This document shows positions 18,607 through 27,448 of a stretch of DNA of 56,406 nt, one piece after another. The notes under the pieces were generated by a model. It did not search any database, was not told where the DNA came from, and saw nothing but the letters and a program-made list of their open reading frames with translations. Origin of the DNA: Acidobacteriota bacterium. GTDB lineage: Bacteria > Acidobacteriota > Terriglobia > 20CM-2-55-15. The stretch lies in contig QHWY01000106.1 in assembly GCA_003223875.1 (NCBI GenBank), positions 1 through 56,406 on the forward strand, given 5' to 3'. Numbering within the stretch: the stretch's first letter is position 1; each line of letters begins with the position of its first letter. Both the position numbers and the translations under genes were made by a program.

Positions 18607-19818
18607 ATGCCCATTGGGACAGCGTTTCACGATCGGACCTTCACGCTCTGTGAGAGCCTGAACTACCGCGAGTGGTCGGGATATTACGCCGTCAGCGCGT
18701 ATGAAACTCATCACCAACACGAATATAACGCAATACGGAATTCGGTCGCGCTAATCGACGTCTCTCCTCTTTTCAAGTACCGCATTACAGGGCATGACGC
18801 GACACGGCTCGTTGATCGTGTCGTCACGCGGGACATGCGAAAAGTTTCCGTAGGGCAAGTGATCTACACGCCATGGTGCGACGAAAGAGGAAAAGTCATC
18901 GATGACGGAACGGTCTCTCGCCTGGGTAAGAACACGTATCGTTGGACGGCGGCGGATCCCAACCTGCGATGGTTTCATCAAAACGCACAGGGCATGGACG
19001 TTCAGATCCGAGATATTTCCGAAAAGGTCGCAGCACTTGCGCTTCAAGGTCCGATGTCAGGAAGATTACTCCAGACGATTGTCGAGGGCGCCGACATTGC
19101 GAACCTCAAATACTTCCACGTCACAAAGGGAACCATCTCCGGAGTGCGCGTCGATATTTCACGCACCGGCTACACAGGAGATCTGGGTTACGAACTCTGG
19201 ATGCCGTGGAAGGAAGGCGTTAGAGTTTGGGACCGTCTCATGACCGCGGGCCGAATATTTGATATTCACGCTGCCGGCATGCTGGCGCTCGATGTCGTTC
19301 GGATTGAAGCCGGACTTCTTCTCATCGATATCGATTTCAACAGCAGTAAGAAGGCGATGACCGAAGCCCAAAAATACTCGCCATTCGAGCTCGGCCTCGG
19401 ACGCCTGGTCCATCTCGACAAGTCCCGCTTCGTCGGCCAGGATGCTCTGATACGGGAACAGAAAGAGGGACACAGCCGGGAGATCGCCGGAATCGAAGTG
19501 GACTGGCCCAGTGTTGAACGGCTCTATGACGAACTTGGTCTGCCGGCCTCGATACCCGCTGTTGCTTCGCGGGTCGCGGTACCGATGTACAAGAATGGTA
19601 TTCAGATCGGTAAAGCAACCTCGACGACGTGGTCTCCCACTCTGAAGAAACTGATCGCCCTAGCAACGTTGAAGCGGGACTACGCCAAGCCCGGAACCAT
19701 CGTGGAAATGGAAATCACCGTTGAAGCCGTGCGTCATCGCGTTCCAGCCACCGTTGTAAAGACTCCGTTTTTCAATCCCAAGCGAAAGACAGGCATGAAT
19801 TCGGGGTCAGACGGGTGA
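18607..19818 (+). CDS. GcvT-like aminomethyltransferase / demethylase family protein
   Basis: A 403-residue cytoplasmic tetrahydrofolate-binding protein of the GcvT family. The N-terminus places substrate-side residues in YYAVSAYETHHQHEYNAIRN; the typical folate region includes SRTGYTGDLGYELWMP near residue 185 and a FVGQDALI motif near residue 278. The substrate is not deducible; demethylation of a methylated amine or ether is usual. The gene follows the PQQ dehydrogenase by 14 bp. The last six codons (NSGSDG) and the stop come from the end of the RAYT element that follows, so the native C-terminus has been replaced. Confidence 0.82.
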   Translation: MPIGTAFHDRTFTLCESLNYREWSGYYAVSAYETHHQHEYNAIRNSVALIDVSPLFKYRITGHDATRLVDRVVTRDMRKVSVGQVIYTPWCDERGKVIDDGTVSRLGKNTYRWTAADPNLRWFHQNAQGMDVQIRDISEKVAALALQGPMSGRLLQTIVEGADIANLKYFHVTKGTISGVRVDISRTGYTGDLGYELWMPWKEGVRVWDRLMTAGRIFDIHAAGMLALDVVRIEAGLLLIDIDFNSSKKAMTEAQKYSPFELGLGRLVHLDKSRFVGQDALIREQKEGHSREIAGIEVDWPSVERLYDELGLPASIPAVASRVAVPMYKNGIQIGKATSTTWSPTLKKLIALATLKRDYAKPGTIVEMEITVEAVRHRVPATVVKTPFFNPKRKTGMNSGSDG

Positions 19819-20405
19819 ATTCCCTATTTATGACAAATCATGTTCACCTCGTCGTGGTTCCAATGCACCAACACAGTATCTCTAAGACGTTGCACGATGC
19901 ACACACGGAGTACTCCACATATTTCAATGCGAAGTACGGTTTCGTAGGACATGTTTGGCAGGGCCGCGCCGACATTTCTCTCATGGACGAAACCTATATG
20001 TGGAATGCCGTGCGTTACGTGGAACGGAATCCAGTTCGGGCCGGGATTGTGCAACGCGCTGAAGACTATCCCTGGTCCAGCGCCGTCGCGCACTGCCAGT
20101 TTAGAGACGATAACCTTCTTTCGGATGATTTTCCGCCGCCCGGAGCCATCAAAAATTGGGCCGAATGGTTAAGGATCGATCATTCCGAGGAGGATAAAAG
20201 AACAATTCGCGCGCATCTCTCTACCGGCAGACCCTGGTGCACTCCTGAGGTGCTTGAAAAACTGGAAGAACTAACGAGACGCAGGCTTAGGCCCCGACAA
20301 CCAGGTCGCCGCAAGAAAATTCGGGCTGAGACAGAGTGAATTCCCTATTTCCATTGACCACTTCCTTTCTCGGAAATAGGGAATTCACCCGTCTGACCCC
20401 GAATT
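19798..20405 (+). mobile_element. RAYT/REP element
   Basis: A 608-bp unit bounded by 32-bp inverted arms (AATTCGGGGTCAGACGG... at 19798-19829 and its complement at 20374-20405). At the right end the inner arm GAATTCCCTATTT recurs (20338-20350), forming a hairpin with the right arm. It carries one transposase gene. The left arm provides the stop for the GcvT-like gene, and the right arm provides the stop for the convergent permease gene. Confidence 0.85.
19815..20339 (+). CDS. REP-associated tyrosine transposase, N-terminally truncated
   Basis: Y1/HUH-family transposase. The metal-binding HUH motif is NHVHLVV near residues 8-14 and the catalytic Tyr lies in the helix around TEYSTYFNAKYG; the GHVWQGR and YVERNPVRAGIV blocks are classic for RAYTs. 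Family members have about 60 residues before the HUH motif; here these are missing, replaced by the repeat arm. A GTG at 19815 overlaps the preceding TGA as GTGA; ATG 19830 (MTNHVH) is the alternative. Loss of the first strands probably makes it inactive, though the rest is intact (about 170 residues). Confidence 0.85.
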   Translation: MNSLFMTNHVHLVVVPMHQHSISKTLHDAHTEYSTYFNAKYGFVGHVWQGRADISLMDETYMWNAVRYVERNPVRAGIVQRAEDYPWSSAVAHCQFRDDNLLSDDFPPPGAIKNWAEWLRIDHSEEDKRTIRAHLSTGRPWCTPEVLEKLEELTRRRLRPRQPGRRKKIRAETE

Positions 20406-21782
20406 TCTCCTGCCAATCCAGTAGATGACGGCGCCAATACCTACCATGAGCCCGCTCGAACCGAGCAGTTTCACGACCGCAAAGAACTTGTTGGGTTCCT
20501 CGGCTGGAGGGACGCAGGCCAGAACACTCGAAATGATTGTGGTAATCAACCCAAGGATGGCGAGCAGAAACGCAACCGGTTTTCCGCCGGGAATGCGCAT
20601 CACGTCAGGCCCGGCGGGCTCTCCTTGCAAGCGGATCACAGAAGAGAACATGTACAAGAACGGCAGAAAGTAAGAGATCACGCCCATGCCGACAAGAAAA
20701 TCGTAAGCGCCTCGCACCGACGTTCCGGCTTGGCCCAAAAAGATGAAGATTCCCGCAAGCGCTGCCTGAACTGCCATTGCCACATACGGCGTATTCCACC
20801 TGGGATGCACGCGCCCGAATGCCGCCGGTAAAAATTTGTCGACACCGGCGACGAACGGCAACCGCGCAGAGGCCGCAAAATATGCGCTGACAGCGCCGAC
20901 GCTGCTCAGGGTCACCAGAAGCGCGACCCAAGGTGCAACTCCCTCCAATCCTATCCGGCTGCCTACCCTGCTGATCGCCTGCATGAAACCCTGCAGGCCC
21001 GTGACGTCTTCCGCCGGCAAAGCGATGAGTACGCTGGTGGTCGCCGCCAAATAAATAAAAGTGATGATCACTCCGGCCACCAGAAGCGCACGTGGGATGT
21101 TACGGCGGGCATTTCGAATCTCGCTGCCCATTGTCGATGCGGCTTCCACGCCTCCAAACGCGAATGCGACGGTGGACCAGAAAAAGACATTTTTCAAATC
21201 CAGTGCTGGAAGGACCGTCGATCGTTCAATGACCGTCGCCGAACCGAATCGCGACCACGCCACCGAACCCATGACGATGAGCATCGTGGCCGGCACCCAG
21301 GTTCCGATCGCGCCGAGATTGTGAAGCCACTTTCCGATATCCAAACCAACAAGATTCAACACGAATCCAAGCGCAAGGCCGAGGATAGCCGTCGCGATGA
21401 AATACAGATTGTTATTGGAAAGGTGCTGCCATCGGTCACCTCCGATGAATAAGGCGTTGCCGGCCGCAAAATACAAGACGCCGGGGTAGTACGGCAGATT
21501 GGCTGTCCAGTACATCCAGCCTGTCATGAAACCTGCGAACTCTCCGAAGGCTTTCTTGCTCCACACATAAATGCCTCCCTCTTCTGGATATCGCGATGAG
21601 AGTTCCAGTACACAAAAGGTCAGGGGAACGAAATACGTGACACAGCCGACGATCCAGATGACGATTGAGCTGGGCCCGGCTGCAGCCGCTGTGGCAATCC
21701 ATCGAAGGCTCAGGGCGGTGACCAGATAGAACAAAACGAGGTCGCCCAGACCCATCGCTTTTCGAAGATGCGCATCGTCCAT
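20385..21782 (-). CDS. APC-superfamily amino-acid/polyamine permease
   Basis: A 465-residue inner-membrane transporter with about 12 hydrophobic helices. The N-terminal GLGDLVLFYLVTALSLRWI with unwound-helix glycine region, ELSSRYPEEGGIYVWSKKAFGE near residue 62-83 and FAFGGVEAASTMGSEIRN near residue 208 are hallmark APC segments. It probably exchanges or imports an amino acid or amine by proton symport; the substrate is unknown. The C-terminus ends RRNSGSDG; NSGSDG and the stop are encoded by the REP arm, exactly as on the gene at the other side. It is divergent from a cytosine deaminase gene 35 bp away. Confidence 0.9.
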   Translation of the reverse strand: MDDAHLRKAMGLGDLVLFYLVTALSLRWIATAAAAGPSSIVIWIVGCVTYFVPLTFCVLELSSRYPEEGGIYVWSKKAFGEFAGFMTGWMYWTANLPYYPGVLYFAAGNALFIGGDRWQHLSNNNLYFIATAILGLALGFVLNLVGLDIGKWLHNLGAIGTWVPATMLIVMGSVAWSRFGSATVIERSTVLPALDLKNVFFWSTVAFAFGGVEAASTMGSEIRNARRNIPRALLVAGVIITFIYLAATTSVLIALPAEDVTGLQGFMQAISRVGSRIGLEGVAPWVALLVTLSSVGAVSAYFAASARLPFVAGVDKFLPAAFGRVHPRWNTPYVAMAVQAALAGIFIFLGQAGTSVRGAYDFLVGMGVISYFLPFLYMFSSVIRLQGEPAGPDVMRIPGGKPVAFLLAILGLITTIISSVLACVPPAEEPNKFFAVVKLLGSSGLMVGIGAVIYWIGRRNSGSDG

Positions 21783-27373: not shown

Positions 27374-27448
27374 AATTCGGGGTCAGACGGGTGAATTCCC
27401 TATTCTCGGAGCGGAAAAATAGGGAATTCACCCGTCTGACCCCGAATT
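27374..27448. mobile_element. Non-autonomous REP palindrome (RAYT-type arms)
   Basis: A 75-bp near-perfect palindrome made of the two outer arms of the RAYT element joined around a 13-bp loop (CTCGGAGCGGAAA). The right arm reads GGGAATTCACCCGTCTGACC. It lies between the MFS gene and the CHRD gene, 34 bp upstream of the latter's start codon. Confidence 0.9.

Follow-up and report, generated by a model that had tools for sequence, protein, structure and literature searches.

Why should two unrelated genes that face each other end in the same six residues? This question is raised by a locus in the window, that is, the whole stretch of 56,406 nucleotides analysed here, where a GcvT-like gene of the aminomethyltransferase fold (18607-19818, plus strand; GCV_T 9.1e-60, GCV_T_C 1.7e-14) is convergent to an APC-family amino acid permease gene (20385-21782, minus strand; AA_permease_2 1.4e-54) and a RAYT-type transposase sequence lies between them. 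In this study, we argue that the element between the two genes very probably belongs to a family of mobile palindromic repeats of the RAYT/TIRYT type, as a decayed copy that carries a transposase, and that the arms of this family can terminate the genes that they abut and add a tail to them.

Shared tails and native C-termini

The arms of the element form a 40-nt inverted repeat with 93% complementarity (19798-19837 and 20366-20405). The last six codons and the TGA (19816-19818) of the GcvT-like gene, whose protein ends in ..KRKTGMNSGSDG, lie inside the left arm (19798-19829, plus strand; AATTCGGGGTCAGACGGGTGAATTCCCTATTT), which encodes N-S-G-S-D-G and stop, and the right arm (20372-20405), read on the minus strand, gives the same six residues and stop to the permease, which ends in ..YWIGRRNSGSDG with its TGA at 20387-20385. 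The ends of the open reading frames and the inverted repeat thus agree with the initial annotation, which had placed NSGSDG on both genes, and, each TGA being inside an arm, the element does provide a stop in both directions.

Comparison with orthologues, along the lines that the initial annotation had proposed as a check, showed different native C-termini in species separate from that of the window's genome. In the same genus the GcvT-like proteins end in KTPFFNPKRKTATPA-type sequence (G002), KTPFLNPKRKTATPPV (G005), KTPFFNPKRKIAIPV (G001) or KTPFFNPPRKTAPFIV (G004), the ends of relatives without the element there reading ..KTATPA, ..KTATPPV, ..KIAIPV and ..KTAPFIV, while the permease ends in YWIRKRKNAG in G005 and in other short tails in G002, G004, G001 and G008. 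The NSGSDG end was absent from every same-genus orthologue read, GcvT-like or permease. Because same-genus relatives that lack the element at this place end otherwise, the tail of the element has replaced the native C-termini, and the replaced stretch is the last few native residues only (..KRKTATPA to ..KRKTGMNSGSDG). That the tail is native and merely matched by the arms has next to no probability, being ruled out by the differing ends of all same-genus orthologues and by six further unrelated genes that have the tail only where an arm is present.

A dispersed family of palindromes

The 21-nt arm core, TCGGGGTCAGACGGGTGAATT, has 85 genome-wide occurrences at up to 3 mismatches, and 75 of these arms are identical across the 21 nt. 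The reversed-pattern control gave 0 occurrences, so the arm matches are not due to chance. The 85 arms fall into 44 sites, 41 of which have both arms; 43 sites are without transposase, and only the copy between the GcvT-like and permease genes holds a transposase sequence of this type. With the exception of that copy, the elements measure 66-83 nt from core to core, with near-perfect arms and a variable loop, and where the arm is a variant (GACTGG or GACCAC) the two halves of a copy share the change. A full palindrome copy folds far more stably than its shuffles (z -12 to -14). Most copies thus consist of a short loop between a pair of inverted arms, and copies mainly abut gene 3' ends. Exact 25-nt arm matches among named genomes were confined to Acidobacteria-type MAGs.

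The window holds a second copy of the same palindrome without transposase (27374-27448; fold -60 kcal/mol, z -11.8), towards which the 5' ends of the nearest called genes point. Among the sites L062-L103 the copies fall into two size classes, with core-to-core lengths of about 66-75 or 79-83 nt; the loops vary while the arms are nearly identical, and the loops of the short class resemble those of other families in G003.

The genome is a draft assembly of 489 contigs, about 93% complete, and some contigs terminate inside the repeat (L076, L091), as an assembly artefact at a repeat might lead one to expect. Such an artefact is nevertheless very improbable, because unique transposase sequence stands between the arms in the window and the same tails are found in the independent assemblies G003 and G006.

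The same tail in other genes

Read in one frame, each arm is AAT TCG GGG TCA GAC GGG TGA and gives N-S-G-S-D-G and stop to the gene cut there; the palindromic form of the element means that a convergent gene opposite receives the same tail. A genome survey for further ends of this kind next to the arm, also suggested by the initial annotation, yielded eight genes ending in NSGSDG, NSGSDW or NSGSDH at six of the 44 sites: the window's GcvT-like and permease genes, both genes of L081, and genes at L062, L076, L100 and L103. At L076 a luciferase-like monooxygenase ends in EAWGNSGSDG versus EAWGNS in a relative, and a site in G003, TGGGGAAATTCATAA, resembles an unfilled target for this insertion. 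L081 is a convergent pair, an iron-sulfur/molybdopterin-type protein and an MFS transporter, that both carry the tail, the native ends in relatives being QNRD and QNTAEPKD on the left and LDQAG on the right; the tail is thus present on both convergent genes at two sites, the window's and L081. A class V, cysteine desulfurase-like aminotransferase (L103) ends in YYKGNSGSDH versus YYKKV in relatives, and the protein at L062 ends in NRGNSGSDG versus NRASDHRGAV, NRAADLTKQH or NRNLA, with both insertion and tail shared by G003, the closest relative. The MobA-like protein of L100 ends in NSGSDW, and the MobA gene of G003 ends in RGAHT within a different palindrome family with the core GCGCACACC. Two other candidates, L084 and L099, had been counted by open frame alone and were dropped, because the gene caller puts the gene on the opposite strand there.

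The stop of the arm depends on the frame, and the other two frames lead to longer tails. A thioredoxin-like protein (L086) reads the arm in another frame and ends in IRGQTGEFPILLPRFFDWQIGNSPV, while a MoaD/CysO-like protein (L064, 4024-4350, minus strand) has its diglycine followed by KFGVRRVNSLFFELQK from the arm, again in another frame; both were named from their sequence. The L064 tail comprises 16 residues from the repeat, its relatives ending in AGGG or AGGL, and could block activation of the protein unless it is trimmed.

The stop-bearing frame was used by 8 of the 10 genes that read an arm, versus one third expected (p 0.003), an excess consistent with survival of the frame that does least harm. 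Related repeat families with the cores TCAGAC, TCTGAC, GCGCAC and TCGCAC have a TGA at the same distance and in the same frame from the arm edge. It is conceivable, if rather improbable, that the in-frame stop is an adapted trait and the repeat a soft-landing stop cassette that settles at gene ends from either direction and can be replaced by other families at the same site. The TGA of the arm probably has its origin in the pairing of AATTC with GAATT in the hairpin, and its usefulness would be accidental. Unrelated proteins here share a tail without evident functional reason, and to annotators an NSGSDG tail in this group should suggest a repeat rather than a sorting signal or degradation tag.

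The transposase remnant

The transposase sequence (19830-20339, plus strand) is an open frame in which everything before MTNHVHL is missing. Its open reading frame (19815-20339) begins at the HUH motif and matches Y1_Tnp from 49 to 120 of 121 and REP_Tyr_transpos from 55 to 146 of 146, which bears out the initial annotation's statement that the region before the HUH motif is lacking; the scores are 20.8 bits, under the cut-off of 23, and 45.6 bits versus 80, respectively. Intact relatives have about 52-57 residues ahead of the point where it starts. The HUH motif and tyrosine are kept, H9, H11 and Y68 being invariant with respect to three intact relatives, and from general knowledge of the family we take Y68 to be the catalytic tyrosine. 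With an incomplete catalytic domain, this HUH/Y1 transposase is a remnant and not a working member.

On the left side of the element a single arm is fused directly to the HUH motif, and the right side retains a fuller palindrome. The latter contains a perfect 17-bp inner hairpin (20336-20352 and 20372-20388; RNA fold of 20336-20388 -26 kcal/mol, z -4.3), preceded by a decayed inner half-arm (20317-20332, plus strand; inverted repeat I3, 88%) that overlaps the transposase C-terminus. The TGA of the transposase itself (20337-20339) falls at the beginning of the right-hand palindrome, within its TGAATTC, and in L214 of G004 the stop of the gene likewise lies in the TGAATTC of the right-hand repeat.

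L214 is an intact RAYT with the order arm, gene, inverted arm, and its arm, GGGGGCGCACACCTGAATTC, is related to those described here. In the window's genome (489-contig draft, about 93% complete) no intact transposase with exactly these arms was found, and for that reason we infer, rather than observe, that the arms were once mobilised by a RAYT-type transposase.

A lost Rieske gene at the locus

A Rieske oxygenase gene, named from its sequence and not by family search, lies between the GcvT-like and permease genes directly in G005 and G002, and in G001 as read from two contig ends. No orthologue was found in the window's draft genome (about 93% complete), where the best match has 23% identity. 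As the gene stands between the two in relatives and is missing here, the element is at the site of the lost gene and marks a deletion junction rather than a clean landing between neighbours. The initial annotation had envisaged an element that landed between two convergent genes and replaced both C-termini; replacement is borne out, limited to the last few residues, but the two genes were not originally neighbours. The element thus occupies the former Rieske position, and its arms have taken the place of the final few native codons of each flanking gene.

How this state was reached admits a second history. A repeat at the stop of the GcvT-like gene and a transposase-bearing copy beyond the Rieske gene might have recombined, or the stretch between them been deleted, so that one event took out the Rieske gene together with half a repeat and the 5' part of the transposase. 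We regard this as a serious possibility, although somewhat short of an even chance, and it describes a different history with the same end state. The presence of the Rieske gene in three relatives and its absence here speak for it, as does the contrast between the left single arm fused into the HUH motif and the fuller right palindrome. On the other hand, the intact L214 also begins with one outer arm, well ahead of the gene, and an ordinary internal deletion therefore explains the truncation equally well.

Relation to known systems

It has been described that RAYTs are flanked by inverted REPs (Nunvar et al. 2010, PMC2817692). The portions of Di Nocera et al. (2013, PMC3733652) on these elements describe RAYT-like genes that stand between terminal inverted repeats (TIRs) bearing the motif GGGGWSAS, dispersed TIR repeats, and an Acidobacteria group of TIRYT-type transposases. 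Consistent with those TIRtrons, the transposase gene here stands between inverted repeats that recur dispersed across the genome as dimers, and GGGGWSAS is present in the terminal inverted repeat as GGGGTCAG, in 75 identical arms. In contrast to the TIRtrons, the transposase is truncated, and the arms add a fixed six-residue tail and stop on both sides, a tail not mentioned in those portions of PMC3733652.

The same source, in its part on REPs, reports REPs situated less than 20 bp away from each of two convergent ORFs, and notes that the termini of REPs often supply the stop codon of flanking ORFs. The palindromes described here resemble these GTAG REPs and the REPINs associated with RAYTs (PMC2817692, PMC3733652) in being short and paired, in their position at gene 3' ends, and in providing a stop from the element's terminus. 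They differ in that the GT(A/G)G head is absent, the arm edge being AATTCGGGG at nearly all sites, and in that the TGA lies 18 nt inside the arm, which puts a peptide tail ahead of the stop instead of placing the stop at the outermost edge. Enterobacterial small mobile sequences, in the account of RU-1 given in PMC2759123, likewise remove the native stop and add a C-terminal tail, but the RU-1 tails are longer and that account gives no case in which two convergent genes are tailed symmetrically. Because the RAYT/TIR layout, stop-donating REPs and tail-adding mobile sequences have all been published, the element belongs to a known kind; its distinctive detail is that, at two sites, the two convergent genes symmetrically carry the six-residue tail.

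Position at gene ends

Genes around the copies were called by a simple hexamer gene caller. By these calls, a gene 3' end overlaps, or lies within 20 nt of, 40 of the 85 arms, versus 2.5% of random intergenic sides at the same loci; the binomial probability is about 1e-35, a strength that is overstated because arms were treated as independent. The stop codon overlaps the element in 25 of the 48 gene 3' ends that face an arm, and 13 sites besides the window's fall between convergent genes.

Might the repeats be kept for a role at gene ends, blocking ribosomes or 3' RNA decay, or insulating convergent transcripts? The hairpins are very stable (z about -12 to -14), many arms lie within 15 nt of stops, E. 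coli REPs so near a stop have been reported to stall ribosomes (PMC12306157), and in relatives the same gene end is held by different palindromes. We nevertheless regard such a role as unlikely, since 36 of the 85 arms face gene 5' ends, a search for a hairpin with T run gave no T-run terminator after the hairpin at the window's arms, and purging of harmful insertions predicts the same pattern. Retention at gene ends would then probably result from such purging, aided by the in-frame stop, and not from a selected function. The case also makes it testable, by comparison of insertion frames and sites across species, whether the repeats are directed to gene ends or simply persist there.

Differently occupied sites in relatives and flanks of the copies

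Empty or differently occupied sites were seen in relatives, which together with the filled sites in sister species offers a clean comparative case of small mobile palindromes that rewrite protein C-termini. In G006, which belongs to another genus, one open frame ends in NNSGSDG inside a TCTGACGGG arm, and at the L095 site G003 has a GCGCACCCC palindrome in place of the repeat of the window's genome.

The flanks of 41 copies (L062-L103 and the window) match across the element at positions 4-6 from the core oftener than shuffled pairs, with 35 of 41 matching at position 4 versus 22.5 expected, the pattern that a palindromic target, or extension of the arms by template switching, would give. Neither the flanks nor the empty sites established a target-site duplication, whether of AATT or at a palindromic GGGAAATTTCCC target. 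Different palindrome families were also observed at the same gene ends when L095, L070, L072 and L089 were set against L191, L201, L200 and L196 of G003, and at L196 one palindrome family is nested inside another.
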